From: Paraescarpia echinospica
Lineage: Eukaryota; Annelida; Polychaeta; Sabellida; Siboglinidae
Assembly (NCBI GenBank): GCA_020002185.1
Contig: CM034537.1
Coordinates: 6,971,590-7,035,589 of the forward strand
Length of the DNA stretch: 64,000 bases
Reading direction: 5' to 3'
Under the pieces are notes generated by a model. It was not told the DNA's origin. It did not search any database and saw nothing but the letters and a program-made list of their open reading frames with translations. Each line of letters starts with the position of its first letter. Position 1 is the first letter of the stretch. Of the stretch, positions 4,799 to 53,425 are shown one piece after another. The position numbers and the translations under genes were made by a program.

Positions 4799-4840
4799 TC
4801 CTCGATTTCAGTTTTCTTTTTTTCTTTCTCTTCTTTTTTC

Positions 4841-5080: not shown

Positions 5081-5084
5081 TTAC

Positions 5085-16335: not shown

Positions 16336-16389
16336 AGTAGTAATATAGGTGGTTTACGATGGTTGTTGACGCGGCGCGGAGGAAATCAC

Positions 16390-16545
16390 ATGTTAAAGGA
16401 TAGGGATTTTGCACCAGGGCGCTCCCGGGTTAAAGGATAGGGAAGAGGATGAGTGGCTCCGGTCCCATGTTAGGAGATGGGGATTTTGCACCAGGGCGCT
16501 CCCGGGTTAAGAGATAGGAAATTTTCTCCACGTTAAAGCATAGGA
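16390..16545 (+). repeat. Subterminal GTTAAAGGATAGG repeats of copy 3
   Basis: Four to five spaced units of the type ATGTTAAAGGATAGGGATTT are interleaved with GCACCAGGGCGCTCCCGG. Related GTTAAANGATAGG units recur in the spacer of copy 2 (49,360-49,500). This confirms kinship of the copies and marks a conserved subterminal motif. Confidence 0.7.
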
Positions 16546-16930
16546 GGTATTATCGTAAAGGTATCCGACGACTTTTTGAAAAAATAAAATATACCAAATA
16601 GCATTTGAATATGTCACACACGAGATTGCTTGGCCTGTAGGCCGAGGCTCCGCCAAGGGACCGAGCCTTTATTTGGTTGACGATGACATGTCTAAAATGT
16701 GGTGTTCTAATAAGGCGTAATTTATATAATAAAAGGATTATAAATTCAACGGAGGTCGTTTTATCTGAAGTAATATATACGAAATGTAAACTACATATAG
16801 GACTATGTTATATTAGAACCTATAGCCTCGTTTTTTCGAACAGAGCGGCCATCTTGGAATGATACGTTTGGTATCATTTCCATACGGTAGTACCCAAATT
16901 CGTGTCTCTTATAAATTCCGTACTCGAGAC

Positions 16931-17348
16931 GCGCAGTAATTTTGTACGCGAGGTGAGTTGGTTATACAGGTAATGATTTGGTTAGACCTTGTTTTGAACT
17001 TGCGCATATGTAATGTAATTCCATCATTTGATCATCAACAGTGACATCATTAAACTATAAACTGCTATGCGCAGTAATTTTGTACGCGAGGTGAGTTGGT
17101 TATACAGGTAGTGATTTGGTTAGCCATTGTTTTGAACTTGCGCGCTTGAATATAATTCCATCATGTGACGTCATGATGCAGTGACATCATTAAACTATAA
17201 ACTGCTACGCGCAGTAATTTTGTACGCGAGGTGAGTTGGTTATACAGGTAGTGATTTGGTTAGCCATTGTTTTGAACTTGCGTGCTTGAATATAATTCCA
17301 CCATGTGACGTCATGATGCAGTGACATCATTAAACTATAAACTGCTAA
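16931..17348 (+). repeat. Three tandem units of about 139 bp upstream of gene A
   Basis: Units start with GCGCAGTAATTTTGTACGCG at 16,931, 17,069 and 17,209. Each contains GAGGTGAGTTGGTTATACAG and ends with TTAAACTATAAACTGCT. The second and third include a perfect TGACGTCA (17,166-17,173 and 17,306-17,313). One related unit is found in both arms of copy 1 (39,525-39,585 and inverted 44,165-44,225). Confidence 0.85.
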
Positions 17349-17405
17349 GACGTCATTAAATAGGTCAGTGACGTCGTTAAATAGGCCATTGCGCATGCGC
17401 AATGG
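17166..17405 (+). promoter_or_regulatory. CRE sites and NRF1-type palindrome upstream of gene A
   Basis: Two perfect TGACGTCA cAMP-response elements are followed by further GACGTC segments. Then comes a 20-base perfect palindrome, CCATTGCGCATGCGCAATGG, at 17,386-17,405. The core of the palindrome is the known NRF1 consensus TGCGCATGCGCA. The same block is at 46,526-46,545 and, with one change, at 52,770-52,789 in copy 2. Binding is inferred from consensus only. Confidence 0.6.
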
Positions 17406-17814
17406 CGTCTTTTCTTATGTCCCATAGGTTGTCGACCATTTGTTTAGGTGTAGGCCTCTCCTAGCCTATACATTTACAACTTTAACATAGGTCCAAACAT
17501 GACGAATCGGTAGAGAACTAGTAAAATAAGCCAAATTATGTAATTTCTAGTTACCATACATATCTACGACCTTTCCATCACCCTTTTTGTAAATGTTTCC
17601 CTATCAATGTATCTTATTACTTGCATACTTCGACTTCTTCCTGTATTAACAAATAGGTGTTTGTCAATTTGTGTGTACTATTTCGTCTCTGTCATCAGCT
17701 CCGGCAATCAAACCAAACATCAATGATTCACCCTACAGTCTGTACCTATAATTTCTACTCTACAGTCCGTGATCTTTCGGCACGCCCACGTGAACTTTCG
17801 GCACATTTACTAAC

Positions 17815-17822
17815 TATATAAG
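17815..17822 (+). promoter_or_regulatory. TATA box of gene A
   Basis: TATATAAG lies 62 bases before the likely ATG at 17,884, at a suitable distance for a transcription start near 17,845. A related promoter (CACGACCACGTG, then TATAAAAG) occurs in copy 1 at 39,640-39,679. Confidence 0.6.
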
Positions 17823-17883
17823 CGTGGTGTTTTACCAATCGGACCGTCATTCGTATCACGACGACACCACGGCTAACATCATC

Positions 17884-19284
17884 ATGTTGAAGACACCTTA
17901 CTACCGACCTCGCAATGCGGCAGACTCGAGCGACGAGGACGAGCCAACGAGCAAACCCGTCATGCCGGTGCCAACCGACCTGCCGGGCCATCGGAACCAG
18001 AGGTCGTGGACGTAGTGGACGTGCCAACTCTAGAATCAACGGTAAGCGCCGACCCTGTTATCAAGGTCAGAGGTCCCCTTATTGACAAAGTGCGCAAGTA
18101 TACTCCCTTCTACATCGGGTGCAGATACTGCAAGAAGCGTATGATAGTCGACGATAGGGGACATTTGCAATGCAAATGACACGGTTACGTTGCCTCTGAC
18201 ATGTATGTTATGGTTCGAACGACCGCTGCCGATGAGGATTCCCTACCGACCCCGAAACAACTACCACCATCGCAGAGACCCTTCACCTGCCCAGACTGTG
18301 GGGGATCGTTCACACTGAAAAATAATAGCAAGCGTCACGTCACCAGCGGATGTTGTGCCCGTCGGAAGAGGACGGCCGAGGATTCCGAGCTGGACGCGCT
18401 TGTGGTGAGTCATACTTTATATTGTTTTACTATATACTTTCACCTAAAATGTCGTTCCCCGTGTCTATACTTTCCCTAAAATGGCGTCCCCATAGCTTCT
18501 GCTATAAGGGTGTCCAGTGTGTCTTTACTTCCGCTAAAACTTCGCCCCGTTTTATACTTTATGATCATACAACTTGTCACCTTACTTCCTTTCACGTAAC
18601 TTCTTATCATTGTTTCCTACCGATCCTTGTATCACCGTACTCTAGCAACGGTGTACTATTCCCATGCAATCTTTAATATTTTTAAATGTTATTGAAATAT
18701 TCTTGCAGGACTACATTGAAGGTCCGCTACCACCAAAGCGGCAACGAATAGTCTCTGTGTCGACAATTAATGAGACGATTAATGACAACGGGACAGCATC
18801 GACACCAACTTCCGTTCCTAACGACGTCACAACTACCCACGCTGTCAATGTCACAACTTCTACCCAGCCTGCCAACGTCGCAATTTCCGCTCCTGACTTT
18901 GCTGGTCCGAACTTTACCATTGATTTCCCTGTAACCGAAATGAAGAAGACGCTTGCACGTCACATAGCATGCAGCATCTTTGAACTCTCAAGACGACAAT
19001 GCCGTGGTTGCGAGATAGATCATCCTAGTCAATTTCATCACGATTGTATGTTATCTGATGACATTCAAATTTGCATGCACTTTGACGAGGCTGTCGAGAC
19101 CATTAATTCAACTGCAGTGGTGAAAGACTGTTTGAGTGTTTTGTTAGATGCCGGAGTGAAACTATCCGACGTGACAGTCGAACAGTTGTATAATATTAAT
19201 ACTTGGTTGCAAGAATCCGTTTCGAAACAGTGGCGAAACACTATGAAACATATGATTCTGGCAGTAATGGAGGGTGACCTGTAA
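17884..19284 (+). pseudogene. Gene A of the DNA element: spliced zinc-finger protein, broken
   Basis: Two exons. Exon 1 runs from ATG 17,884 to 18,404. A GT-AG intron follows (18,405-18,708, donor GTGAGT, acceptor TTCTTGCAG). Exon 2 is 18,709-19,284, joined in phase 0, for about 365 residues. Visible parts are an acidic N-terminus (SSDEDE), a zinc-ribbon-like segment (GCRYCKKRM...LQC), a C2HC finger (CPDCGGSF...H-x4-C near 18,290-18,350), a basic PPKRQR segment after the intron, a Ser/Thr-rich linker and a conserved C-terminal domain with SRRQCRGCEIDHPSQFHHDC. Damage is a frameshift near 17,980 and a TGA at 18,177 beside a likely zinc-binding Cys. A nuclear DNA-binding role is inferred from the fingers. 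I recall similar uncharacterised proteins in invertebrate genomes but cannot verify a family name. Confidence 0.65.
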
Positions 19285-19308
19285 AGAACTTTCTTTTGTC
19301 TTGTACAC

Positions 19309-19430
19309 GATTAAACTTTGAAGACTCTGTATCAATGTCTAGTCTCCGGTTCTTGTAGTTATGGAGCGTGACATGTAAATACGTTTGTGTTGTTCACGAA
19401 TAAACTGTGCAAACCATATCTCGTGTCTTT
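19309..19430 (+). terminator. Polyadenylation region of gene A
   Basis: ATTAAA at about 19,309 and AATAAACTGTGCAAACC at about 19,402 lie just after the gene A stop, followed by a GT-rich CTCGTGTCTTT. The same AATAAACTGTGCAAACC block follows gene A in copy 2 and the collapsed locus in copy 1. Confidence 0.6.
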
Positions 19431-19650
19431 ACTTAACCAAACTAAGACCAACGTCTTCCACGAATCAAACTTTGACTAGCGAGATGCACGAACCAAGCAT
19501 TCAAACAAACTTGTGGACAAACGAAACACCAAACACTTAGACCAAAGAGTGACAAGAAACAAACTTGTCGGACAAACGAAACATCAAACACTTAGATCAA
19601 CGGTTGCAAGAACCAATCTTCTACGATTCTCTTCAGTCCACCGAATACAC

Positions 19651-19651
<1 letters not shown>

Positions 19652-19746
<95 letters not shown>

Positions 19747-19870
19747 TGTGGTGGTGGTTGTGTGAGTGTGTGTGTGGTGGTGTGAGTGTGTGGTGTGGTG
19801 GTGGTGGTGTGTATGACTGTGTGTGTGTGTGGTGGTGGTGTGTGAGTGAGGGTGTGTGTGTGTGTGTGTA
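19652..19870 (+). repeat. (GT)n microsatellite between genes A and B
   Basis: About 45 uninterrupted GT units to 19,745, then GTGGTG-rich variants to about 19,870. Copy 2 has an ACTC repeat at the same place between the same two genes. Confidence 0.95.
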
Positions 19871-19980
19871 CTAACTACTCAATCGTCGACACACTTCCGA
19901 GAATGTTAGAACTGTAGAGTCAGCCATTACAGTTACATGACTTGAGGTGTGACGGAACTTCTAGCGTAGTGCTTCATGTC

Positions 19981-19988
19981 TATAAATA
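19981..19988 (+). promoter_or_regulatory. TATA box of gene B
   Basis: TATAAATA lies 118 bases before the ATG at 20,099. A transcription start near 20,010 would leave a leader of about 85 bases. No mapped start is available. Confidence 0.45.
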
Positions 19989-20098
19989 CGCGGGGACCAT
20001 CTAACGGGTAACTAATTCACTAGTCGAAACTTATACTTAGACTGACGGGTTCCAAGAGCCATTCCGTTCTTTGCATTTGAACCGTAAACACGTACATC

Positions 20099-20350
20099 AT
20101 GAGCTTATTGCCTATTCTACCAGCTGCCAACAAGCCCACACCATCATCACGGGCGGCCTCCCAGTGCCCAGATTGCAAGAGACATTTCACACGTCGGGAC
20201 AACTTGAAACGACACAGTGCCTACAGTCGCTGTGCACTGTTGACAAACGCTACGTCGCTGAAACCACTTGGCCCGGCGCCCACTACGACATCTGTATCTC
20301 TGGCCCCAGCAACAAGCTCGACATGCCTGTCTCCATCTCTGGCGAAAGTA
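20099..20350 (+). pseudogene. Gene B of the DNA element, truncated 5' part
   Basis: ATG at 20,099. The N-terminus holds one zinc finger (CPDCKRHF...LKRH-x5-C, residues about 23-45), then a Ser/Thr/Pro-rich segment ending near SPSLAKVYT. It matches the N-terminus of gene B in copy 2 (51,348, minus strand), where the fuller reading continues into a conserved domain. Here the sequence switches to gypsy copy A at about 20,350, so the open frame to 20,446 is a fusion of two elements. Function in the element is unknown; DNA binding is suggested by the finger. Confidence 0.65.
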
Positions 20351-20865
20351 TATACTCTAACCAAGGACTGTTGGGCTTACACAGGTGACAAGGAAATCGC
20401 TCCTTACTACACGCGTATGAACTTTCCCTGTCAGAAGGATGTCTGATGTGGGGAATCAGAGTGATAATACCATTGAAACTTCACCCGCAGGTTCTACACT
20501 TGCTACACGAAGGACATTTGGGAGTAGTAAAAATGAAATCATTGGCCAGAAGTCATGTTTGGTGGCCATAAATTGACCATGATCTTGAACAGATGGCAAA
20601 AGGGTGCCCAGGCTGTTAACATGTACAGAAGATGCCCACACAAGCGCCATTACACCCTTGGGAATGGCCGACTAAGCCATGGCAACGTGTGCATGTTGAT
20701 TACGCCGGCCCCTTTAAAGGAACTATGTTTCTCGTCATCATGGACGCACACTCGAAATGGCCCGAGGTGATCAGCACGCAGTCAACAACCGCTACAAAGA
20801 CCATCGAAATTCTACGAAGTGTATTCGCACGTAACGGTCTGCCCGAAATTGCTGCTCCTAGATAT
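20351..20865 (+). pseudogene. Gypsy copy A integrase fragment
   Basis: In broken frames the sequence reads DKEIAPYYTRMN, GCLMWGIRVIIP, LHEGHLGVVKMKSLARSHVW and GCPGC (the HHCC zinc region). It then continues VHVDYAGPFKG, FLVIMDAHSKWPEV (first catalytic Asp) and LRSVFARNGLPEI. The match ends there, before the second Asp and the Glu. It is the downstream part of the element interrupted at 16,335. Confidence 0.8.
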
Positions 20866-26975: not shown

Positions 26976-26991
26976 GCTGGCGACGAGGATA

Positions 26992-38295: not shown

Positions 38296-38592
38296 CGCGC
38301 GATAGGTGTCGCTGCTGCTGATTACGTCAGTGCCAGCAGTACCTCCTGGCTGATCGCGTTGTGAAACTCTGAATTTAAGCTCAGCCTATGAAATCGCTCA
38401 CTAGATCTGTGGTTGGCGGCAGGTCAGGTGGTCATAATAAAACTAATTTCAACCAACCGTGGCTCGTGAGTAGTAAAGGAGGTTAAGTACCGCGTACGGT
38501 GGATTCGGATGGGAGGAAGAGGAATAACTAGGTCAAGTACCCGGATGTAGGTAAAGGTCAAGGTTAAGTACCCTGATGTAGGTCAAGGTCAT

Positions 38593-39485
38593 GTGTCGCC
38601 CCTAGCGGATAGTTGGTGAAAAAAAATATTTCCCACAAAAAAACCAGCGCCCCTGGCGGATAGTTGGTGAACTAAAATAATTTCCTCGCAAAACTATGAC
38701 AGCGCCACCTACCGGATAGCTCATGAACTAAACTATTTTCGCGCCAAAACTATAACAGCGCCACCTAGCGGATATACCATGAACTAAAACAACCGCAACC
38801 TGGCGTAATTTTTGAAACTAAATAGGTTGACCACAGCGCCCCCCCATGCGGAATTTTTCGAGACTAAAATTGCGCCCTTGAGTATCGCCCCCGGCGGATT
38901 TTTTGTGAACTAAAATGGCTTGAAGCGCCCCCTGGCGGATAGTTGTTGAACTAAAATATGTTTAAATAGAACAGCGCCACCTAGCGGATAGATCGTGAAC
39001 TGAAACAGCGCCACCTGGCGGATATATCATGAACTAAAACAGCGCCACCTGGAGGATTTTTTTTGGGCCGAAATATGTATATCCGCAGCTCCCCTAGCGG
39101 AATTTTTCGGGACTCAGTCCCCTGGCGGAAATGTCATGAACTAAAAACAGCGCCACCCGGTGGATTTTTTTGAAACTAAAATAGGTTGACCCGCAGCGCC
39201 CCATATCGGAATTTTTCGGAACTAATTATGCAAGTGGTGGCACCTTGTGGATAAGTTGTGAAGTAAATGTTCGAGTACTGCAAATATTCGTGTATCTTGC
39301 ACGTTTGCGTGCAATAGAGCCCCCTGACGGGTACATCACGAACCACAAACATCATCCCCTAGTGGCCAAGTGGGCGAACCACCTATGAGTACTGCAAAAA
39401 TTCGTGTCTGTTGTTTTTTCTCGTTCATAAACTCCTGGTGGATATATCATCATCAACTGAAAGCACCCCTGTTAGATAAGTTGTG
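38593..39485 (+). repeat. CTCF-like motif array, left arm of copy 1
   Basis: About 20 imperfect units of about 35-55 bp. The core is AGCGCCACCTGGCGGATA, and most are followed by T-rich or ATCATGAACTAAAA sequence. The reverse complement of the unit at 39,007-39,021 is CCGCCAGGTGGCGCT, one mismatch from the known CTCF core CCASYAGRKGGCRS. The inverted array is at about 44,270-45,140. Confidence 0.8.
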
Positions 39486-39639
39486 AACTAAATATAGGTC
39501 CAAACCTGACGAATCGGTAGAGATGCACGAGGTGAGTTGGTTATACAGGTAGTGATCTGGTTAGCCATCATTTTGAGCTCTCGTCTCAAAAGAGTATTAG
39601 CTATTCTCATAGGTTAGAAATGTCGTGTTCGTTCGGCAC

Positions 39640-39735
39640 GACCACGTGACCTTTATGTTCTGTCGAACTCTTATAAAAGAATACGTTTGTGTTGTAATAA
39701 ACTGTGCAAACCTCATCTTGTGTCTTTTTCATAGT
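39640..39735 (+). promoter_or_regulatory. Promoter joined directly to poly(A) site, gene A deleted
   Basis: CACGACCACGTG and TATAAAAG (39,672-39,679) match the gene A promoter of copy 3. Only 16 bases later AATAAACTGTGCAAACC (AATAAA at 39,696-39,701) matches the gene A poly(A) region. The whole gene between them is missing. The inverted arm shows the same join near 44,040-44,075. Confidence 0.7.
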
Positions 39736-39785
39736 GTAATGCAAAGCATATGTTGGGAACCATACTAATAGTCTTACACATCACA

Positions 39786-40165
39786 AGTATGTCTGTGTAG
39801 TTCAGTACAGATATGTTAACCACTTATGTATCTGTGTAGTTCAGTACAGATACGTTAACAAGTTATGTCTGTGTGTGTAGTTCAGTACAGATACGTTAAC
39901 CAATTATGTCTGTGTAGTTCAGTACAGATACGTTAACCACTTATGTCTGTGTAGTACAGTACAGTTATGTTAACCACTTATGTCTATGTGTAGTTCAGTA
40001 CAGATACGGTAACCACTTATGTCTGTGTAGTGCAGTACAGTTATGTTAACCACTTATGTCTATGTGTAGTTCAGTACAGATACGGTAACCACTTATGTCT
40101 GTGTAGTTCAGTACAGTTATGTTAACCACTTATGTCTGTGTAGTTCAGTACAGAGATGTTAATGT
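39786..40165 (+). repeat. 37-bp minisatellite, left arm of copy 1
   Basis: About ten units of TATGTCTGTGTAGTTCAGTA-CAGATACGTTAACCACT. A second block lies at 40,850-41,010, and inverted blocks at 43,015-43,135 and 43,575-43,960. Confidence 0.9.
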
Positions 40166-40850
40166 ACTCAGACCAACTAGTGGTGCAAACGAAACACTAT
40201 GCTTTGACCAACACACGGCACGAATCGAACTCAGACCAACTAGTTGCGTAAACGAAACAGAAACTTAACCGATTACTCTGCACGAATTGAACTCAGACCA
40301 ACTAGTTACGTAAACGAAACAGAAACTTAACCGATTACGCTGCACAAATTGAACTCAGATCAACTAGTCACGCAAACGAAACACTATGCTTTTACCAAAA
40401 CGCTGAACGACTCGATCTATAGACACGAGTTGTACAAACGAAACACTACCCTTTGACCAACACGTGTCACAAATTGAACTCAGATCAACTAGTCACGCAA
40501 ACGAAACACTGCTTTGACCAAAACGCTGAACGAATCGATCTATAGACACGAGTTGTACAAACGAAACACTACCCTTTGACCAACACGTGTCACAAATTGA
40601 ACTCAGATCAACTAGTCACGCAAACGAAACACTATGCTTTGACCAAAACGCTGAACGACTCGATTTATAGACACGAGTTGTACAAACGAAACACTACCCT
40701 TTGACCAACACGTGTCACAAATTGAACTCAGATTTGTTTTCGTACTATAGTATTTAAATTCGTGCTTCTTCGGTAAAACCTTCCAAACTTGCTTCTGTCG
40801 TAAAACAACTAACCTGGCATGGGTAACCGAAAACGAACTCATAGATTCAA
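40166..40850 (+). repeat. AAACGAAACACTATGCTTTG repeat block, copy 1
   Basis: Units of about 60-110 bp combine ACTCAGACCAACTAGT, AAACGAAACACTATGCTTTG and ACCAACACGTGTCACGAAT. They are inverted at about 42,905-43,575. Related AAACGAAACACCAAACACTT sequence lies after gene A in copy 3 (19,510-19,600), so this block occupies the A-B intergenic position. Confidence 0.8.
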
Positions 40851-41129
40851 CAGTTATGTTAACCACTTATGTCTATGTGTAGTTCAGTACAGTTATGTTA
40901 ACCACTTATGTCTGTGTAGTTCAGTACAGTTATGTTAACCACTTATGTCTGTGTAGTTCAGTACAGTTATGTTAACCACTTATGTCTGTGTAGTTCAGTA
41001 CAGAGATGTTAATGTACTCAGACCAACTAGTGGTGCAAACGAAACACTATGCTTTGACCAACACGTGTCACGAAAACGAAACACTATGCTTTGACCAATA
41101 CGTGTCACGAATTGAACTTAGATCAACTA

Positions 41130-41585
41130 GACACATCACACGAGACTATGGCCGAGATATGTCACGAGACTTCGGATGACACATCACACGAGAGTACCGA
41201 CGAGACAAGAGACGAGACTATGACCGAGATATGTCACGAGACTACGGATGACACGAGACTACGGATGACACATCACACGAGAGTACCGACGAGACAAGAG
41301 ACGAGACTATGACCGAGATATGTCACGAGACTACGGATGACACATCACACGAGACTATGGCCGAGATATGTCACGAGACTTCGGATGACACGTCACACGA
41401 GAGTACCGACGAGACAAGAGACGAGACCATGACCGAGATATGTCACGAGACTACGGATGACACATCACACGAGACTATGACCGAGATATGTCACGAGACT
41501 ACGGATGACACATCACACGAGACTATGACCGAGATATGTCACGAGACTGCGAATGACACATCACACGAGACTATGGCCGAGACAA
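41130..41585 (+). repeat. 48-bp minisatellite that stays open in frame
   Basis: Nine or ten units of about 48 bases containing CACGAGACTATGACCGAGAT and GTCACGAGACTACGGATGAC. Because 48 is a multiple of three, one frame is open throughout and encodes repeats of ETMTEICHETTDDTSH (41,309-41,689 and others). The inverted block is at 42,395-42,905, also open. I see no promoter or start context; coding is doubtful. Confidence 0.8.
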
Positions 41586-41599
41586 GAGATACGCCACGA

Positions 41600-42394
41600 G
41601 ACGTTCAAAGAGGTGACCATCATGGTTTCCGACGCCACTCAACGGACACCAATGTAATTTGTCAGAGTATAGCCATCTATCGAACATGATAGTTCTCTAT
41701 TCGTTGACACACATATTCGTTGGGAATAGCGGAAGCGTAGAGGCCGCCATGTCAGGTCGCCATGACATTCAAATAACTTCCGGTACTACGTTACTTCCGG
41801 CGTAGCGTCCCTAGTAGAGGCCGCCATGACAGTCAAGCGACTTCCGGTACCACGTCACTTCCGGCGTAGAGACCCCTAGTGGATCATCGGAGTACTACGT
41901 CACATACGGCCATAGCAAGCGAATTTGAAAACTGCTATGATCGAAAACGACTATGTCAATAACATGTAAGGACAACCACCTGACAGGACTTCATTCAATG
42001 AGGTGCCAAACATCACATACCTTCATGTCAAGAGACGATCATCTGTTCGGATTCACGTCCAACGAGGCGACCATAGGACTCGTATGAGGTATCGCTTCTT
42101 TTAATGGAAAACATATGTATATGAAGCAGCCGTCTTTTCAACGTAACAATTCCATATTTTCAAATAGTGCGAGCGACCAGATACGATACGACCTTCTCGA
42201 GAGTCGAAAAAGGAAAGACCAGAATCGTCGGAAGCACGGTATATACACTAGTTTTCGGCGTGATCTCATTTGCATAATCAATCAGACCGAACGTACATCA
42301 CGTGACTTACCTTAACACAAAAACTGTGCACGTTCATGAGACAGGCGACATCTGATGGCCCCAACGGATAGCAATGTAACTACTCAGAATAGTA
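41600..42394. other. Spacer of copy 1
   Basis: Contains block A (about 41,640-41,940; CGGACACCAATGTAATT, paired ACTTCCGG sites) and block B (about 42,003-42,330; GTGCCAAACATCACATACC to GACCGAACGTACATCACGTG). Both blocks recur in the spacer of copy 2 in the same orientation but the opposite order. No gene is evident. Confidence 0.7.
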
Positions 42395-45338
42395 GTCTTG
42401 TGACATATCTCGGTCATAGTCGGTACTTTCGTGTGATGTGTCATCCGTAGTCTCGTGACATATCTCGGTCATAGTCTCGTATGATGTGTCATCCGTAGTC
42501 TCGTGACATATCTCGGTCATAGTCTCGTGTGATGTGACATCCGTAGTCTCGTGACATATCTTGGTCATAGTATCGTGTGATGTGTCATCCGTAGTCTCGT
42601 GACATATCTCGGTCATAGTCTCGTCTCTTGTCTCGTCGGTACTCTCGTGTGACGTGTCATCCGAAGTCTCGTGTCATATCTCGGCCATAGTCTCGTGTGA
42701 TGTGTCATCCGTAGTCTCGTGACATATCTCGGTCATAGTCTTGTCTCGTCGGTACTCTCGTGTGATGTGTCATCCGTAGTCTCGTGTCATCCGTAGTCTC
42801 GTGACATATCTCGGTCATAGTCTCGTCTCTTGTCTCGTCGGTACTCTCGTGTGATGTGTCATCCGAAGTCTCGTGACATATCTCGGCCATAGTCTCGTGT
42901 GATGTGTCTAGTTGATCTAAGTTCAATTCGTGACACGTGTTGGTCAAAGCATAGTGTTTCGTTTTCGTGACACGTAAGCATAGTGTTTCGTTTGCACCAC
43001 CAGTTGGTCTGAGTACATTAACATTTCTGTACTGAACTACACAGACATAAGTGGTTAACATAACTGTACTGAAATACACAGACATAAGTGGTTAACATAA
43101 CTGTACTGAACTACACATAGACATAAGTTGTTAACATAACTGTTGAATCTATGAGTTCGTTTTCGGTTACCCATGCCAGGTTAGTTGTTTTACGACAGAA
43201 GCAAGTTTGGAAGGTTTTACCGAAAAAGCACGAATTTAAATACTATATTACGAAAACAAATCTGAGTTCAATTTGTGACACGTGTTGGTCAAAGGGTAGT
43301 GTTTCGTTTGTACAACTCGTGTCTATAGATCGAGTCGTTCAGCGTTTTGGTCAAAGCATAGTGTTTCTTTTGCGTGACTAGTTGATCTGAGTTGAATTTG
43401 TGCAGCGTAATCGGTTAAGTTTCTGTTTCGTTTACGTAACTAGTTGGTCTGAGTTCAATTCGTGCAGCGTAATCGGTTAAGTTTCTGTTTCGTTTACGCA
43501 ACTAGTTGGTCTGAGTTCGATTCGTGCCGTGTGTTGGTCAAAGCATAGTGTTTCGTTTGCACCACTAGTTGGTCTGAGTACATTAACATCTCTGTACTGA
43601 ACTACACAGACATAAGTGGTTAACATAACTGTACTGAACTACACAGACATAAGTGGTTACAGTATCTGTACTGAACTACACATAGACATAAGTGGTTAAC
43701 ATAACTGTACTGCACTACACAGACATAAGTGGTTACCGTATCTGTACTGAACTACACATAGACATAAGTGGTTAACATAACTGTACTGCACTACACAGAC
43801 ATAAGTGGTTAACGTATCTGTACTGAACTACACAGACATAAGTGGTTAACGTATCTGTACTGAACTACACACACAGACATAACTTGTTAACGTATCTGTA
43901 CTGAACTACACAGATACATAAGTGGTTAACATATCTGTACTGAACTACACAGACATACTTGTGATGTGTAAGACTATTAGTATGGTTCCCAACATATGCT
44001 ATGCATTACACTATGAAAAAGACACAAGATGAGGTTTGCACAGTTTATTAAAACACAAACGTATTCTTTTATAAGAGTTCGACACAACATAAAGGTCACG
44101 TGGTCGTGCCGAACGAACACGACATTTCTAACCTATGAGAATAGCTAATACTCTTTTGTGACGAGAGCTCAAAATGATGGCTAACCAGATCACTACCTGT
44201 ATAACCAACTCACCTCGTGCATCTCTACCGATTCGTCAGGTTTGGACCTATATTTAGTTCACAACTTATCTAACAGGGGTGCTTTCAGTTGATGATGATA
44301 TATCCACCAGGAGTTTATGAACGAGAAAAAACAACAGACACGAATTTTCGCAGTACTCATAGGTGGTTCGCCCACTTGGCCACTAGGGGATGATGTTTGT
44401 GGTTCGTGATGTCCCCGTCAGGGGGCTCTATTGCACGCAAGCGTGCAAGAGACACGAATATTTGCAGTACTCTAACATTTACTTCACAACTTATCCACAA
44501 GGTGGCACCACTTGCATAATTAGTCCCGAAACATTCCGCTATGGGGCGCTGCGGGTCAACATATTTTAGTTTCAAAAAAATTCGCTGTTTTACTTCATGA
44601 CATATCCGCCAGGGGAACTGAGTCCCGAACAATTCCGCTAGGGGCGCTGCGGGTAAACCTATTTAGGTTTAAAAAAAAATCCACCACGTGGCGCTGTTTT
44701 AGTTCGTGATCTATCCGCCAGGTGGCGCTGTTTTAGTTCACGATCTATACGTTAGGTGGCGCTGTTCTAGCGATAAATTATGTTAGTTCAACAGCTACCC
44801 GCCAGGGGGCGTTTCAAGCCAATTTAGTTCACCAAAAATCCGCCAGGGACGATACCAAGGGCGCTATTTTAGTCCCGAAAAATTCCGCTAGGGGGCGCTG
44901 TGGTCAACCTATTTTAGTTCCAAAAAATTCCGCCGTGTGGCGCTTTTTATTTGGTGATCTATCCGCTAGGTGCGCTGTTATAGTTTTGGCGGGTAATATT
45001 TTAGTTCATGAGCTATCCGGTAGGTGGCGCTGTTATAGTCTTGGTGGGGAATTATTTTAGTTCACCAACTATCCGCCAGCGGTGCTGGGTTTTTTGGAGG
45101 GAATATTTAGTTCACCAACTATCCGCTAGGGGGCGCCACATTACCTTGACCTTTGGCATACATCATTTGACCTTGACCTACAACCGGGTACTTAACATTG
45201 ACCTTTGACCTTGATCTACATCCTGGTCATGTGACCTTTCACCTTGACCTACATCCGGGTACTTGACCTAGTTGTGACGTCATTCCTCTTCCTCCCATCC
45301 GAATCCACCGTACGCGGTACTTAACTTCCTTTACTACT
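42395..45338 (-). repeat. Right arm of copy 1 (inverted copy of left arm)
   Basis: Mirrors the left arm through minisatellites, the collapsed promoter/poly(A) region (44,040-44,110), the GAGGTGAGTTGG unit (44,165-44,225) and the CTCF-like array, to the terminal AGTAGTAAAGG inverse. It carries a perfect DR1-type site TGACCTTTGACCT at 45,199-45,211. Arms differ by substitutions and indels, so they are not an exact assembly mirror. Confidence 0.8.
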
Positions 45339-45344
45339 CTCGTG

Positions 45345-46006
45345 TTACATGCAACGTTTAGGAAGTAGAAGCAATTATTCGAATACACAATACCGCTTGT
45401 GCTAATGGGCGAACGGGTCATCATTACTTGTTGATATTCCCAGAAGTCGTTTATCCGCCTTCAAATTGGGGAATTCTCATGGGTTCTCACGGGTGATGCA
45501 GTCGCGACTGGTGAAGTTAATTACTAGTTTGACTCGGCTAACTTCCGCACTTCGCGTAGGGGATTAGCCAGGGCTAGTTTTGCATGACAAACAGTCCTGG
45601 TTTGCGAAGACGGAAATAGATAGGAAAATTATCGTGAAAATTACATGATTGCATGTTTTTTCGTAAATAGTAACTTCAATATGGTTACATCAACGTAACA
45701 ATGGCATTGAACATAAAAGTTGCTTCTCCAAATTTAGAATCCACACAGACATAATTCGTTGATGTGGGATGAACGGTTCAGAAGTTAGGGCCGTTTCAGG
45801 ATTGTTGGTTAAAGGTGCAAGCCCCCAACGGCCCCGCACGGGGGACGATCGTTGTACACTCGGACTAAAAACATTATTTACGCACCAACCAAAAAGCAGA
45901 ATCAAAAAGTACACTTTTACAACAACTTGAAATGACTGAAAGTCTTGTGATTCCACTATTAGTTATGTTACGTTTTTAATTGTGCTGGTACAAAAAGTGG
46001 TACCAA
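45345..46006. other. Host sequence between the two palindromic elements
   Basis: About 660 bp with no recognised gene. The segment at about 45,757-45,795 (CGTTGATGTGGGATGAACGG) matches the left flank of copy 1 near 38,060. This suggests both elements sit inside copies of another repeat. Confidence 0.5.
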
Positions 46007-46097
46007 TTGGTGAGTAGTAATATAGGTTAATCAGCGGGGATGGAATGATTATGAGTAGTGGAAGTGGAGTTCAAGGTCAAGTGCCCGGATGTAGGTC

Positions 46098-46445
46098 AAA
46101 TGGCGCCCCTAGCGGATTGTTTGTGAAATAAAACAGCACCCACAGCGAAATTTTTCGGAATAAAAAAGTACAAATGGCGCCCCCTAACGGATTTTTTTTC
46201 CGGAAATGAAATATATGAGTTGTGCCACTGGCGGATTTTTTCGGAACTATTTCCCCTGGCGGATATGTTGCTAACTACAAAACAACAGTGGTGCCACCTT
46301 ACGGATAAGGTTTGGACTAAATGTAGGAGTACTGCCTAATTTGGTGCGTCTTATTTATGAAAATTGGCGCCCCTTGGTGGAAAGGTTACGAACTGAAAGA
46401 GAAGTACAAATAACTCCCCCTAGCAGATTTCAGTGAACCAAACAT
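46098..46445 (+). repeat. CTCF-like motif array, left arm of copy 2
   Basis: About eight spaced units such as TGGCGCCCCTAGCGGATTG and GGCGCCCCTTGGTGGAAAG. They are inverted at about 52,905-53,205. The array is shorter than in copy 1. The spacer also has GCGCCCCCTAGTGG (50,054-50,067), whose reverse complement fits the CTCF core at all 14 positions. Confidence 0.75.
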
Positions 46446-46525
46446 CGATACTGCTTAAGTTCGTGCCCCTTGATTCTTTTTTCTCTTTTTACTATAAAAA
46501 TAGGTCAGTGACGTCGTTAAATAGA

Positions 46526-46545
46526 CCATTGCGCATGCGCAATGG
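46526..46545 (+). promoter_or_regulatory. NRF1-type 20-base palindrome, copy 2 left arm
   Basis: CCATTGCGCATGCGCAATGG, identical to 17,386-17,405 in copy 3 and preceded by the same TGACGTCGTTAAATAG segment. The right-arm copy (52,770-52,789) has one base changed. Confidence 0.65.
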
Positions 46546-46992
46546 TGTCTTTTTTATGTCCCATAGGTTGTCGACCATTTGTTTAGGTGTAGGCCTCTCC
46601 TAGCCTATACATTTACAACTTTAACAAAGGTCCAAACCTGACGAATAGATAGAGAGAACTAATAAAATAAGTTAAATTGTGGCATATCTGATCAACATGC
46701 AGATATATGACCTTCCCCTCATCCTGTTCGTACATTTTTGCCTATCAATGTCTCTTATTACTTGCATACGTCGACTGCTTCCTGTATTATTAAATAGGTG
46801 TTTGTCAATTTTTACGTACCCATGTATGTTATTAATGGCAGACGTGAAGTGATTCCTGAACATGTAACATTCTTTGAGACATCTCTATAAACAAAATCAA
46901 GGTCTCGCAATACTTTAACATTCATCAGTGCTATAGTTTTTAAACAACGCTACAGTTTTACATAGGACATTTGCACATTTCCTGCGAACGAA

Positions 46993-47394
46993 ATGAAGAA
47001 GACGATTGCACGTCACATAGCGTGTGCCGTCGTTGAACTCTCGAGACGGCAGTGTCTCGCTTGCGAGATAGACGATCCTAGTCAATTTCATCACGGTTGT
47101 ATGTTACCCGATGACATTCTAATTTATATGCACTTTGACGAGGCTGTGGAGACTATTGATTCAACTGCAGTGATGAAAGACTGGTTGAGTGTTTTGTTAG
47201 ACGCAGGTTTTAATCTATCCGACCTGACGTCCGAACACTTGTGTGCTATCGGGAGTTGGTTGCAAGAACCGTTTTCAGAGGAGTGGCGAAACAAATTTAA
47301 GCAAATTGTTCTGGCAGTAATGGAGGATGATCTGAAAATAAATATTTCTTGTGGTTTTATGAGACCTTTGGTGACATTAATTCAAGTGCAGTGA
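46993..47394 (+). pseudogene. Gene A, copy 2 left arm: C-terminal domain only
   Basis: Corresponds to exon 2 of copy 3 gene A from the MKKT residue onward; the promoter, both fingers and the first exon are deleted. It keeps the conserved domain: RHIACAVVELSRRQC, CEIDDPSQFHHGCML, MHFDEAVE and WLQEPFSEEW. The stop found in copy 3 and in the right arm has changed to a sense codon (CTGAAA), adding about 20 residues to 47,394. No TATA box stands before ATG 46,993, so expression is doubtful. The Cys/His cluster C-x2-C...HPSQ..H...C-type pattern may bind zinc (inference). Confidence 0.6.
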
Positions 47395-47609
47395 ATCGAG
47401 CGCGACCTGTAAATACGTTTGTCTTGTACACGATTAAACTTTGCAAGCCTATGTGTCAATGTCTAGTCTCTGGTTCTTGTAGTTATGGAGTGTGACATGT
47501 AAATACGTTTGTGTTGTTCACGAATAAACTGTGCAAACCTCATCTTGTGTCTTTTTCATAGTGTAATGCAATGCATACTTTGGGAACCTTACTCATTGTC
47601 TTAAGCCCT

Positions 47610-48066
47610 CACGCATTCACTCACTCACTCACTCACACAAGCCCTCACGCACTCACTCACTCACTCACTCACTCAAGCCCTCACTCACTCACTCACTCAC
47701 TCACTCACACAAGCCCTCACGCATTCACTCACTCACTCACTCACGCATTCACTCACTCACTCACTCACACAAGCCCTCACGCACTCACTCACTCACTCAC
47801 TCAAGCCCTCACTCACTCACCCACTCACACAAGCCTTCACGCATTCACCCACTCACTCATTCGCTCATGCCTTCACGCACTCACTCACTCACACAAGCCC
47901 TCAATCACTCACTCACGCACTCACTCACTCACTCACTCACACAAGCCCTCACGCATTCACTCACAAGCCCTCACGCATTCACTTACTCACTCACTCACTC
48001 ACACAAGCCCTCACGCATTCACTCACTCACCCACTCATTCAATCACACAAGCCCTCACTCACTCAC
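47610..48066 (+). repeat. (ACTC)n-rich microsatellite between genes A and B, left arm
   Basis: CACTCACTCACTC runs interspersed with ACAAGCCCTCACGCATT. The inverted counterpart is at 51,478-51,745. It is open in several frames as THSLTHSL repeats, which is a property of the repeat, not evidence of a gene. Confidence 0.95.
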
Positions 48067-48200
48067 GCCCTCCCTTCGTCGCTTTTCTAACATTTTATCT
48101 TTTCAACATGTTACCGTGGTAACATCTTCGTATTTTAATGCGTTCATTTCATCTCGCCATTCATTTCATTGCTTGCATTTGAACCGCAAACACCTGCATC

Positions 48201-49122
48201 ATGAGCTCATCGACATTTCTCACGTCGGGACAACTTGAAACGGCACATTGCCTCCATTCACGGTGGACGATCGACAGACACCACGTCACTGGATTCACTT
48301 GTCTCGGGGCCCACTACGACACACGTACCTACGGTTCCATCAACAAGCTCGACATTCCCGTCTCCATCTCAGGTGACCACGGAGTATACAAAGAAGATGG
48401 CCCTGGTCGATCCCCGTATTTTGGAAAACATTCAACCGCAACCCCCTTTGACTGCTAACCCTATAGGGAGTGTCTTGCAACGACTCGACAACGAAATGCA
48501 AGGCATATTGGAACGAAGTGATATACACGAGAGGGAAAAAGTTGTGTTGTATAACCAGATATTGAGTCGGTACAACGATCTTTCCGACAAACGTATCCAA
48601 GAACCCGTGCGTGTGGTCATCGAAAAAATTCCCAGCAAAGTCGAAAACAAAGTACAACCTGCTAACGAAAATGAAGTAGTCGAAAAGGAGAGCATCGAAA
48701 ACGAAATAATCGACAGCGTTCCAAAAACTATGAAGCAGAAGGCACGAAGACTACTTGATAAAATGAAAGGTGCCGTAAGTTGGAACGATCGCGGCGAGAT
48801 GATGTACAGAAACAAGGCGGTTCCCGGAAGTAATATCGTGGACCTTGTGAATGACGTGTTGAGAAAACGGAAGTCGTTTGAACCGGTGGGATGGGAAACC
48901 TTCGCTCGTGGTCTCAAGGACGTCAACACGCCAATAGATTTAGTTGGGAACTCAGATCGTTGGCTTTATATGCAGACAGCGTCAGTGGACGACGATATGT
49001 CAAAGGAAAAAAGCATTCCATTCGACAGCGATCGTCATCGGAATCGTAGACGACCTGCATCATCGCGGCGAGCAGCTCATTCGGTGACACCTTTGCAAAT
49101 CACACGTTGGGAACCATATTAG
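48201..49122 (+). pseudogene. Gene B, copy 2 left arm: zinc finger destroyed, main domain open
   Basis: ATG at 48,201 as in the right arm, but about 62 bases are missing just after it. This removes the first half of the finger (CxxC) and shifts the frame. From about 48,235 the correct frame is open to the stop at 49,120. It holds the finger remnant (KRHIASIHGG), a Ser/Thr/Pro linker, MALVDPRILENI, a helical segment (LDNEMQGILERSDIHEREKV), KTMKQKARRLLDKMKGAVSW, PGSNIVDLVNDVLRKRKSFE and GWETFARGL...NSDRWLYM, then an Arg-rich tail (RHRNRRRPASSRR). About 290 residues. I recall this domain combination from uncharacterised Polinton-associated invertebrate proteins, unverified. An AATAAA signal is at 49,211. 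Confidence 0.65.
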
Positions 49123-49278
49123 TATTACCGATTTGCGACAAAAACACGTTCGCGTGGGTCATGCAATCCACAGGAACAGTGTTCAAGAGAGATCATATGG
49201 GGAATATTAAAATAAAATCGTGTTTATGCTATGGATGAGTGTGTTTGATTATTTTTATTTTTCATAGTCACCAAGACG

Positions 49279-50206
49279 CAAATAACTTTTCTTCATTTCA
49301 CTGACAACAAAGTTGCACAAACGAAACACTAAACTTAGCCCAACACGTTGCACGAATTGAATGTTAAAGGATATGAAGTTTCCTCATGTTAAATGATAGG
49401 CCATTTTCTCCATGTTAAACGATAGGTCATTTTCTCCGTGTTAAAGGATAGGATGTTTCCCCATGTTAAAAGATAGGGGATTTTCTCCATGATAAACGTC
49501 AACTCGATGTTTCGTAAAGACATACAACGACATTTTGAGTTTTAGGTGCCAAACATCACATACCTTCATGTCAAGAGACGATCATCTGTTCGGATTCATG
49601 TCCAACGAGGCGACCATAAGACTCGTATGAGGTATCGATTCTTTTAATGGAAAACATATGTATATGAAGCAGCCGTCTTTTCAACGTAACAATTCCATAT
49701 TTTTAAACAGTGCGAGCGACCAGATACGATACGACATTCTTGAGAGCCGAAAAAGGAAAGACCAGAATCGTCGGAAGCACGGTATATACACTAGTTTTAG
49801 GCGTCATCTCATTTGAATAATCAATCAGACCGAACGTACATCACGTGACTTTCCTTAACACATAAAACTGTGCACGTTCCTGAGAGAGGCGACATCCGAC
49901 GCCACTCAACGGACACCAATGTAATTAGTCAGAGTATTCCCATCTACCGCCCATGACAGATCTCTATTTGTCGACACACTTCCGGAAATACCGGAAGCAT
50001 AGAGGCCGCCACGACAGTCAAGTAACTTCCGGTACGACGTCACTTCCGGCGTAGCGCCCCCTAGTGGATAATCGGAGTACTACGTCACATGATAGCGCCA
50101 TCTAGCGGGTAAAAATATATAATTAGGTTAGTTAGAGAAAAAATAGTTCGGGTTAATCTCGCGAAAATTTAAACAACTACCAAGGTGGTTGTTGTATAAA
50201 TTTTCG
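49279..50206. other. Spacer of copy 2
   Basis: Holds GTTAAANGATAGG repeats (49,360-49,500) like those near the end of copy 3. Block B (49,549-49,880) and block A (49,905-50,120, with paired ACTTCCGG and a CTCF-core match) follow, in the opposite order to copy 1. It ends in a hairpin. No gene is evident. Confidence 0.7.
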
Positions 50207-50209
50207 CGT
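50159..50209. repeat. Hairpin at spacer-arm junction of copy 2
   Basis: CGCGAAAATTT...ACAACTACC pairs with GGTGGTTGTTGT...AAATTTTCGCG, giving a stem of about 20 pairs with small bulges and a two-base loop, immediately before the right arm. Confidence 0.75.
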
Positions 50210-50364
50210 CTTGATGATTATGAAAAATAAAAACAATCAAACACACTCATCCATAGCATAAACACGCAATTTTATTTGAATATTCCCCATATGATCTCGC
50301 TTGAACACTGTTCCTGTGGATTGCATGTCCCACGCGAACCTGTTTTTGTCGCAAATCGGTAATA

Positions 50365-51348
50365 CTAATATGGTTCCCAACGTGTGATTTGCAAAGGTGT
50401 CACCGAATGAGCTGCGCGCCGCGATGATGCAGGTCGTCTACGATTCCGATGACGATCGCTGTCGAATGGAATGCTTTTTTCCTTTGACATATCGTCGTCC
50501 ACTGACGCTGTCTGCATATAAAGCCAACGATCTGAGTTCCCTACTAAATCTATTGGCGTGTTGACGTCCTTGAGACCACGAGCGAAGGTTTCCCATCCCA
50601 CCGGTTCAAACGACTTCCGTTTTCTCAACACGTCATTCACAAGGTCCACGATATTACTTCCGGGAACCGCCTTGTTTCTGTACATCATCTCGCCGCGATC
50701 GTTCCAACTTACGGCACCTTTCATTTTATCAAGTAGTCTTCGTGCTTTCTGCTTCATAGTTTTTGGAATGCTGTCGATGATTTCGTTTTCGATGCTCTCC
50801 TATTCGACTACTTCATTTTCGTTAGTACGTTGTACTTTGTTTTCGATTTTGCTGGGAATTTTTTCAATGACCACACGCATGGGTTCTTGGATACGTTTGT
50901 CGGAAAGATCGATGTACCGACTCAATACCTGGTTATACAACACAACTTTTTCCCTCTCGTGTATATCACTTCATTCCAATATGCCTTGTATTTCGTTGTC
51001 GAGTCGTTGCAAGACACTTTCGATAGGGTAAGCAGTCGAAGGGCGTTGCGGTTGAATGTTTTCCAAAATACGGGGATCGACCAGGGCCATCTTCTATGTA
51101 TACTCCATGGTCACCTGAGATGGAGACGGGAATGTCGAGCTTGTTGATGGAACCGTAGGTACGTGTGTCGTAGTGGGCCCCGAGACAAGTGAATCCAGTG
51201 ACGTGGTGTCTGTCGATCGTCCACCGTGAATTGAGTCAATATGCCGTTTCAAGTTGTCCCGACGTGAGAAATGTCTCTTGCAATTTGGGCACTGGTACGG
51301 TGATGGTGTGAGCTTGTTGGCAGCCAGTAGAATATTCGATGAGCTCAT
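50365..51348 (-). pseudogene. Gene B, copy 2 right arm: zinc finger intact, stops downstream
   Basis: ATG at 51,348. The first 84 codons are open and contain a full C2H2 finger (CPNCKRHF...LKRH-x4-H) and the Ser/Thr/Pro linker. A TAG stands at 51,094-51,096 where the left arm has a Lys codon. Further changes lie between 50,800 and 51,060, and the C-terminal half is open again from about 50,757 to the stop at 50,365 (130 residues nearly identical to the left arm). The two arms thus carry complementary damage. Position, orientation and flanks mirror the left arm. Function within the element is not known. Confidence 0.65.
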
Positions 51349-51477
51349 GATGCAGGTGTTTGTGGTTCAAATGCATGCAATGAAATGAATGGCGAAATGA
51401 ATTGAACGCACTAAAATACGAAAATGTTACCACGTTAACATGTTGAAAAGATAAAATGTTAGAAAAGCGACGAAGGG

Positions 51478-51745
51478 AGGGCGTGTGTGAGTGAGGGCTT
51501 GTGTGATTGAATGAGTGGGTGAGTGGGTGAATGCGTGAGGGCTTGTGTGAGTGAGTGAATGCGTGAGGGATTGTGAGTGAGTGAGTGAGTGAGTGAGTGA
51601 GTGAGTGAGTGAGTGAGTGAGTGAGTGAGTGAATGAATGCGTTAGGGCTTGTGAGTGAGTGAGTGAGTGAGGGCTTGAGTGAGTGAGTGAGTGAGTGAGT
51701 GAGTGAGTGCGTGAGGGCTTGTGTGAGTGAGTGAATGCGTGAGGG
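51478..51745 (-). repeat. (GAGT)n microsatellite, right arm of copy 2
   Basis: The inverse of the ACTC array of the left arm, shorter by about 190 bases, with GCGTGAGGGCTTGTG interruptions. Confidence 0.95.
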
Positions 51746-52021
51746 CTTAAGACAATGAGTAAGGTTCTCAAAGTATGCAATGCATTACACTATGAAAAAG
51801 ACACAAGATGAGGTTTGCACAGTTTATTCGTGAACAACACAAACGTATTTACATGTCACACTCCATAACTACAAGAACCAGAGACTAGACATTGATACAT
51901 AGGCTTGCAAAGTTTAATCGTGTACAAGACAAACGTATTTACAGGTCGCGCTCGATTCAATGCACTTGAATTAATGTCACCAAAGGTCTCATAAAACCAC
52001 AAGACATATTTATTTACAGAT

Positions 52022-52325
52022 CATCCTCCATTACTGCCAGAACAATTTGCTTAAATTTGTTTCGCCACTCCTCTGAAAACGGTTCTTGCAACCAACTCCC
52101 GATTGCACACAAGTGTTCGGACGTCAGGTCGGATAGTTTAAAACCTGCGTCTAACAAAACACTCAAACAGCCTCGTCAAAGTGCATATAAATTAGAATGT
52201 CATCGGGTAACATACAACCGTGATGAAATTGACTAGGATCGTCTATCTCGCAAGCGAGACACTGCCGTCTCGAGAGTTCAACGATGGCACACGTTATGTG
52301 ACGTGCAATCGTCTTCTTCATTTCG
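52022..52325 (-). pseudogene. Gene A, copy 2 right arm: internal deletion
   Basis: Same C-terminal domain as the left arm, read from about 52,323 downward (RHIT..IVELSRRQC, CEIDDPSQFHHGCML). About 37 bases are missing after HFDEAV (near 52,170), which shifts the frame. The original stop (CTGTAA) is kept near 52,019. The damage differs from that of the left arm. Confidence 0.6.
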
Positions 52326-53425
52326 TTCGCAGGAAATGTGCAAATGTCCTATGTAAAACTGTAGCGTTGTTTAAAAACTATAGCACTGATGAATGTTAAA
52401 GTATTGCGAGACCTTGATTTTGTTTATAGAGATGTCTCAAAGAATGTTACATGTTCAGGAATCACTTCACGTCTGCCATTAATGACATACATGGGTACGT
52501 AAAAATTGACAAACACCTATTTGATAATACAGGAAGCAGTCGACGTATGCAAGTAATAAGAGACATTGATAGGCAAAAATGTACAAACAGGGTGAGGGGA
52601 AGGTCGTATATGTGTATGGTGATCAGATATGCCATAATTTGAGTTATTTTATTAGTTCTCTCTATCTATTCGTCAGGTTTGGACCTATGTTAAAGTTGTA
52701 AATGTATAGGCTAGGAGAGGCCTACACCTAAAGAAATGGTCGACAACCTATGGGACATCAGAAAAGACACCATTGCGCATGCTCAATGGTCTATTTAACG
52801 ACGTCACTGACCTATTTAATGACGTCTTTGACCTATTTTTATAGTAAAAAGAGAAAAAAGAATCAAGGGGCACGAACTTAAGCAGTATCGATGTTTGGTT
52901 CACTGAAATCCGCTAGGGGGAGTTATTTGTACTTATCTTTCAGTTCGTAATCTTTCCACCAAGGGGCGCCAATTTTCATAAATAAGACGCACCAAATTAG
53001 GCAGTACACCTACATTTAGTCCAAACCTTATCCGTAAGGTGGCACCACTGTTGTTTATAGTTAGCAACATATCCACCAGGGGGTAATAGTTCCGACAAAT
53101 CCGCCAGGGACGCAACTCGTAAATTTAGTTCCAAAAAATCCGTCGGGGGTCGGGGCGGGGCTGTATTTTAGTTCACAAACTATCCGCTAGGGAGCGCCAC
53201 TTGTCCTACATCCGGGCACTTGACCTTTGACCTCCATTTCCACTAATCATTCCATCCCCGCTGATTAACCTATATTACTACTTTGGTGTGATCTGCGTAA
53301 CGTTTTTGAACCGCATGTGACAGGAAAAAACCTTTACTTTAACAAACAGAATAATTTACCGCATCAATTGAGATGTAGCGTAGCTTTAACTAAAACACAA
53401 ATATTAACCTAAGTACAGCTGTTAC

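Follow-up and report, generated by a model that had tools for sequence, protein, structure and literature searches.

Palindromic elements in the genome of the annelid Paraescarpia echinospica as probable satellites of a Polinton/Maverick family that appears to be split over two element types

We analysed a stretch of 64,000 nucleotides (hereafter the window) from the siboglinid annelid Paraescarpia echinospica (GenBank assembly GCA_020002185.1, contig CM034537.1, positions 6,971,590 to 7,035,589 of the forward strand; G000:C7:6971590-7035589 in the 1.08-Gb assembly), which contains two large palindromic DNA elements, e1 and e2. Both are probably non-autonomous, self-complementary satellites of a split, adintovirus-like Polinton/Maverick family, copied by the family B DNA polymerase (PolB) and inserted by the integrase of that family. 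(AGT)2 ends and 6-bp target duplications are common to the palindromes and to two types of gene-bearing elements, one with capsid-like genes and an integrase and the other with PolB, so the palindromes belong to the Polinton/Maverick family. PolB and integrase were almost never found in the same element among the scored loci, and the autonomous partner appears to be split in two.

Element e1 (38469-45338) measures 6,870 bp and e2 (46013-53282) measures 7,270 bp, and each is flanked by two identical hexanucleotides (CTCGTG and TTGGTG, respectively). Both elements start with AGTAGTAA and finish with TTACTACT. In BLAST alignments (element coordinates), the arms of e1 span 1-3080 and 3926-6870 and are 79% identical over 3,216 gapped columns, with a longest ungapped run of 1,322 nt at 98%. 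The arms of e2 span 1-3270 and 4191-7270, with 86% identity over 3,306 gapped columns and ungapped runs of 1,012, 598 and 523 nt at 97%. The gapped identities are lowered because tandem repeats inside the arms changed in length; the left arm of e1 contains, among others, arrays with units of 31, 34, 37, 56, 62, 125 and 48 bp. Long CTCA/GTGA microsatellites were observed in the arms of e2 (47608-48066 and 51483-51743). The spacers, 845 bp in e1 and 920 bp in e2, have 393 bp in common at 94% identity, which makes the two elements kin as palindromes, beyond their ends alone. All this bears out a preliminary description of the same DNA, which had reported two palindromes with arms of about 3 kb around spacers of 0.8-0.9 kb, a shared terminus with its inverse at the other end and exact flanking duplications. 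An Rfam scan of 38400-53400 gave no match at E <= 0.1.

For Polintons/Mavericks, ends of the type (AGT)2//(ACT)2 or (AG)3 have been described, with (AGT)2 as the end motif of vertebrate Mavericks (PMC8097293). The termini of e1 and e2 are of this type, e1 starting with (AGT)2, and the exact 6-bp duplications have the length expected for the family. We searched the genome with an end pattern, AGTAGTAAWRGAGGTTAAGTACCG, which comprises 24 bases of the e1 end with two degenerate positions. In total, 401 matches were found, compared to none for the reversed control, which rules out chance inverted repeats. The first 100 of the 401 places gave 23 pairs of ends facing each other within 18 kb, a sample biased toward copies in which both ends fit the pattern. 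Their flanks came as sets of 20, 2 and 1, and 15 of the 23 pairs showed exact 6-bp duplications (13/20, 2/2 and 0/1), as the preliminary description, which had proposed a genome search with the 60-base termini, would predict. When the flanks of the set of 20 were mispaired as a control, 0 of 380 combinations agreed, against 13 identical among the 20 true pairs. Beyond the 23 pairs, exact duplications flank e1, e2, a 12,688-bp C14 element (CAGGGG) and a 1,381-bp C6 element (GACAGG); the duplication of C14b has one mismatch, and C1312 shows no duplication. In the C12 capsid-type element the right end is altered and gives no match, and the C6 capsid-type element is located in an AT microsatellite, in which a duplication cannot be judged. 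C occupies the third position of the left 6-bp flank in 16 of the 20 pairs, a weak target preference.

The classes of the 23 end pairs were read from their centre and arm pieces, plus the C5 locus. Inverted arms were present in 17 pairs, the weakest being C5:37746168, where masked bases adjoin a match of 160 nt at 86.9%. Four pairs carried ATPase, integrase or capsid-like genes (one of them ATPase and NADAR only, in the part read), one carried PolB, and one showed only the centre block described below, with mirrored flanks. Arm identity in the centre pieces ranged from 86.9 to 99.4%. Ten elements were also sampled 1.5-2.3 kb from their ends: seven had inverted arms there, 97.2-99.75% identical, the PolB and ATPase/NADAR elements had none, and the capsid element had 68 bp. 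In six of these seven palindromes the element's own partner arm was the top-scoring match among the loci compared, and in the seventh, L074, the own arm tied with L011 at 99.5%. The arms of L077 are 97.2% identical over 653 nt, with a further 271-nt match of 97.4% elsewhere. Thus, arms from different elements mostly matched less well than own partners in the seven palindromes sampled. The sampled piece of e1 matched its partner arm at 99.0% over 517 nt, that of e2 lies in a simple repeat (79.6% with its partner) and is hence uninformative, and the arms of C1312 are 99.1% identical.

Most of a centre block, roughly 800 bp long, lies in the spacer of e1. At least part of this block is present in 18 of 69 other loci compared (at least 400 bases each), and in none of the capsid- or PolB-type loci read. 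Within the set of 20, at least part of it was found in 10 of the 20 centre pieces and in 9 of the 15 inverted-arm elements; because these nine share the block, they probably derive from one ancestral palindrome. In the palindromes e2, C5 (10.5 kb) and C1312 (12.9 kb), each of the two arms carries genes that belong to the right arm in gene-bearing elements. With 17 of 23 end pairs bearing inverted arms, many of them around their own centre block, the earlier suggestion of an undescribed non-autonomous class is a reasonable one.

The capsid-type elements (L024, L025/L031, L026, L028, L022, L075, L079 and others) are about 10.7-13.7 kb long in the copies measured, with one shortened copy of 8.0 kb and one of 17.6 kb with doubled genes. 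Their genes are ordered as a SERTA-like-related frame, a NADAR protein or an RPA-like frame, an ATPase, an integrase, two penton-like genes and one major-capsid-like gene, after which ORF-B (facing), ORF-A and an RPA-like frame follow on the opposite strand (ORF, open reading frame). The integrase matched rve (5.1e-16) and Chromo (9.3e-7), both over the Pfam cut-off, as is typical of Polintons, and the ATPase matched PF04665 (Pox_A32-type) with 28.3 bits against a cut-off of 22.8, in agreement with a packaging ATPase of the FtsK/A32 kind. The NADAR domain (3.6e-26; L024:1314-2174) occurs in some capsid-type elements at the place of the RPA-like frame in others. SERTA (23.4 of 25 bits) and RPA (24.8 of 28.5), scored on palindromic loci, are below the Pfam cut-off. 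The penton-like and major-capsid-like genes are so called from their gene order and from what we take to be a likeness to Polinton capsid proteins. The 17.6-kb unit (G000:C4:76338529-76356162; 7.5 kb read), which has the same ends and an exact duplication (CACGAG), contains two tandem integrase stretches, and its right arm bears codons 2-49 of the ATPase. At G000:C11:45247275-45256307 three integrase copies follow one another at an exact spacing of 3,945 bp, perhaps because a capsid-type element was triplicated there in part and in tandem.

In the PolB-type elements a PolB frame of about 1,380-1,390 codons (1,382 open codons in the C14 copy) faces ORF-B. The C14 PolB had 1,492 database relatives, and PF03175 was present in 107 of the 120 listed; through these relatives a Polinton-like family B polymerase is placed on same-ended, separate elements, and family B motifs were also seen by eye. 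The query itself gave no direct Pfam match and no PDB sequence match, a single meaningless match in NCBIfam and only weak matches in PHROGs (best E 0.026). Motifs that we take to be OTU-like were noticed by eye, with no tool match. PolB and the facing ORF-B are 907-1,161 bp apart (18 of 56 loci with ORF-B among the matches listed), and the matched PolB stretch starts 4,957-5,482 bp from the 5′-side terminus in the five loci with a terminus match there. Four PolB loci were probed at both expected ends: two had both ends, one had one and one had neither. The two with both ends are 12,594 and 12,615 bp long and have exact duplications (CACAAC and GACGAT); with the C14 element and C4:52770537 (12,884 bp, ATCGTT) this makes four complete PolB elements. 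Since they are only 12.6-12.9 kb long, there is no space in them for the ATPase-to-capsid block of about 6 kb.

To compare the positions of PolB and integrase, we used the best candidate loci, 56 of 5,654 for PolB and 108 of 5,584 for integrase. The two genes were within 20 kb of each other at 2 of the 56 scored PolB and 2 of the 108 scored integrase loci. The matched PolB stretch was free of stop codons at 39 of the 56 loci, 37 of them at 97-100% identity, and none of the 39 was near a listed integrase; the top-scoring integrase loci were mostly open frames. In both joint loci (C5 and C4) PolB and integrase have the same direction, 2.8 and 3.3 kb apart, and PolB carries stop codons, 3 and 6 in the two copies. 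At C5, the DNA separating PolB from integrase contains an ATPase frame that is open, two parts of ORF-B (residues 58-200 and 282-305) and no terminus better than a five-error match. This locus looks like a one-piece arrangement. Because a reversed PolB start (codons 41-67; L130:121-225) lies just downstream of its PolB, it may also be a rearranged copy or a recombinant of the two types. Some capsid-type elements (L024, L028, L114 and L116) have small ORF-B relics at the corresponding position before the integrase, which would be expected if the capsid type descends from a one-piece form. Polintons have been described as single elements of about 15-20 kb with polymerase, integrase and capsid genes (PMC4028283). 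Here, in contrast, PolB and integrase occupy different elements at almost every scored locus, and because just 2 of 56 PolB loci are near an integrase, both with stops in PolB, recent copies look like a two-part variant. Thus, of the larger same-ended element with PolB, integrase and capsid genes that the preliminary description had anticipated, the PolB, integrase and capsid-like genes were recovered, but almost never PolB and integrase together.

Relatives of ORF-A are present in capsid-type elements, with a partial one in a PolB-type element, and a database search for ORF-A gave 2 relatives among 10 candidates. ORF-B of e2 lacks the zinc-finger start of other copies; in the right arm of e2 the ORF-B copy (51282-50368) has 3 stop codons and the ORF-A copy is broken. 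For ORF-B, 98 database relatives were found, Pinctada imbricata among them. Between elements, the ratio of nonsynonymous to synonymous divergence (dN/dS) of ORF-B was 0.19-0.45 at a dS of 0.07-0.28 (14 pairs from six copies), and the copies in the two arms of palindrome C1312 differ by one replacement at a dS of 0. So the two arms of an element are kept similar to each other, and selection acts on the coding sequence. No relatives of ORF-B were found in viral contigs (single sequence and 32-sequence alignment) or in a phage collection (tblastn), and a Foldseek comparison of its predicted fold (moderate confidence, mean predicted local distance difference test score 71.9) with the PDB gave no convincing match (best E 0.48).

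The insertion step is well supported by the ends and duplications, and the capsid-type integrase would insert all three kinds of element. For the replication step we infer that the PolB-type polymerase copies all three kinds by strand displacement, with protein priming at the trinucleotide repeated at the ends; such a repeat at Polinton ends fits jumping-back in protein-primed replication (PMC8097293). A displaced palindromic strand would fold into a hairpin, the open end of which would rebuild a duplex origin, and the hairpin could be copied at once around its loop, the spacer, into a full palindrome. Mismatches between the arms would be erased in the stem by repair or by snap-back synthesis, so arms would be nearly identical at insertion and drift afterwards. 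The palindromes may have originated through replacement of one end by a copy of the opposite end, which is partly seen in gene-bearing elements (ATPase codons 2-27 in the right arm of L025 and codons 2-49 in that of L118). We give even weight, for and against, to a wider model of a multipartite Polinton, whose segments (one for capsid and integrase, one for the polymerase, and the self-complementary palindromic satellites) share ends, complement each other and move in one animal genome, perhaps descending from a one-piece ancestor of which decayed copies are left.

Several observations weigh against e1 and e2 being satellites of such a split family. Exact duplications are missing from 8 of the 23 end pairs (three with one mismatch, two with mirrored host flanks and three with no match). 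The gapped arm identity is 79% in e1 and 86% in e2, less alike arms were also found in C14b (92.5%), L080 (93.7%), L090 (96.7%) and L121 (86.9%, over 160 nt beside masked bases), and arm identity could be kept by gene conversion after insertion. The end of e2 is a variant that matches e1 and the 24-base pattern in its first bases (AGTAGTAA) and little after, so its tie to the family consists of AGTAGTAA, the spacer and the genes. The capsid-like proteins gave no meaningful Pfam match above the cut-off and no NCBIfam match. Two loci do hold PolB and integrase together, and since only a small part of the candidates was scored, an unsplit one-piece copy may possibly have been missed. Neither a replication intermediate nor movement was seen. 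Finally, in the set of 20, the piece read shows no centre block for 6 of the 15 elements with inverted arms.

This last observation would also fit palindromes that are made afresh, repeatedly, from gene-bearing elements like defective viral genomes and have no lineage of their own, as would the right-arm genes in both arms of e2, C5 and C1312 and the partial end copying in L025 and L118. We consider this origin unlikely, given the presence of at least part of the block at the centre of the nine other elements and its absence from the capsid- and PolB-type loci read. Equally doubtful is a merely apparent split, with an active one-piece autonomous Polinton of which both gene-bearing types are deletion derivatives. 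The two joint loci argue for it, among them C5 with its ATPase frame, ORF-B parts and lack of a good terminus between PolB and integrase, as do the small ORF-B relics between ATPase and integrase in some capsid-type elements. However, the PolB copies of both joint loci contain stops, the stop-free PolB loci are never near a listed integrase, and the reversed PolB start suggests that C5 may be rearranged or recombinant.

Two other explanations are far less probable than these. Mirrored host flanks past the element ends were observed in 2 of the 20 pairs (L044/L045 on C2 and L070/L071 on C5), there reflecting an assembly artefact or a genomic inverted duplication, and one might suspect that the arms altogether are artefacts of palindromic reads or inverted duplications of the genome. 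As a general explanation a read artefact was rejected, since 15 of 23 pairs have direct duplications without mirrored flanks and many spacers lack symmetry and are kin to those of other elements; we hold it to be very improbable. We would be just as surprised if the palindromes were moved by one of the cut-and-paste families that make 6-bp duplications (IS3EU, Dada or Ginger2), to which the duplication length alone would point. The same-ended elements carry a Polinton-type integrase with a chromodomain, and the Ginger2 termini are TGTNR (PMC2836005), as opposed to AGTAGT here, and these families were therefore rejected, the parts read having revealed no transposase of IS3EU or Dada, though no profile search was aimed at them. 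The preliminary description had favoured Polinton/Maverick integration over IS3EU and Dada, and the same-ended elements with 6-bp duplications, rve-chromodomain integrase, Pox_A32-type ATPase and PolB support that choice.

The family described here resembles Polintons/Mavericks and adintoviruses in its (AGT)2//(ACT)2 ends, 6-bp duplications, PolB with PF03175 relatives, rve-chromodomain integrase and packaging ATPase, and presumably also in its capsid-like genes. It differs from Polintons in that 17 of 23 end pairs are inverted-arm elements and that genes lie in some of the inverted arms. Foldback elements (FB, TU and Galileo) likewise have long arms in inverted orientation, built of tandem repeats around a short centre. 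This arm shape is common to unrelated families and is no proof of kinship; known foldbacks go with other transposases and with duplications of other lengths, whereas here the ends and duplications are those of Polintons. Defective adenovirus genomes with one end duplicated and self-complementary adeno-associated virus are likewise one-end palindromes in which a hairpin restarts replication. Unlike these, the palindromes here are inserted in the genome, abundant and, in many cases, built around their own shared centre. Adintoviruses are defined by an OTU-like domain at the N-terminus of PolB and a recognisable hexon (PMC11071296). Bidnaviruses divide a linear DNA genome among segments and use a Polinton-derived PolB (PMC11071308, PMC11071296), and the bipartite densovirus AdSDV also has its linear DNA divided in this way, as the family here would; the capsid genes of both, in contrast, are of the parvovirus type. 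No bipartite or palindromic Polinton was found in the titles and abstract starts of the open-access matches listed, a scope outside which most subscription journals lie. The parts tested are thus those of a Polinton; the split over two elements and the palindromic satellites were not found in the literature searched, and their absence from print is unproven. If the interpretation holds, the family would exemplify genome segmentation in a double-stranded DNA virus-transposon that integrates, possibly with the one-piece stage preserved alongside, and how multipartite genomes originate could be tested inside a single genome. As natural self-complementary satellites, the palindromes would be a third party that exploits both segments, and their arms could act as an insertion clock, as long terminal repeats do.

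Table 1. Coordinates of the palindromic elements and of a third family relative in the window.
Feature	Position	Strand	Remark
e1 left 6-bp target duplication, CTCGTG	38463..38468	.	
e1 left arm	38469..41548	+	starts AGTAGTAAAGGAGGTTAAGTACCG; mostly tandem repeats
e1 asymmetric spacer	41549..42393	+	includes most of centre block 41589-42394
e1 right arm	42394..45338	-	finishes TTACTACT
e1 right 6-bp target duplication, CTCGTG	45339..45344	.	
e2 left 6-bp target duplication, TTGGTG	46007..46012	.	
e2 left arm	46013..49282	+	
ORF-A, 133 aa	46993..47394	+	in e2 left arm
ORF-B, 305-aa open frame	48205..49122	+	in e2 left arm
e2 asymmetric spacer	49283..50202	+	393 bp 94% identical to e1 spacer
e2 right arm	50203..53282	-	mirrors left arm; finishes TTACTACT
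e2 right 6-bp target duplication, TTGGTG	53283..53288	.	
Third family relative	16336..20450 (end approximate)	+	left end AGTAGTAATATAGG

The third relative sits in a Gypsy polyprotein (14654 to about 16330, continuing near 20455) and has one each of an RPA-like frame, ORF-A and the start of a zinc-finger/ORF-B frame. Its right end was looked for and not found, and part of the host Gypsy is missing. A GT array at 19653-19869 roughly matches the place of the e2 microsatellites. Other transposon genes in the window, at 55899-59090 (-), 59533-62307 (-), 26932-30352 (+) and 36339-36701 (-), comprise a LINE-like endonuclease-reverse transcriptase, Gypsy-like frames and a weak Mutator match below the cut-off.

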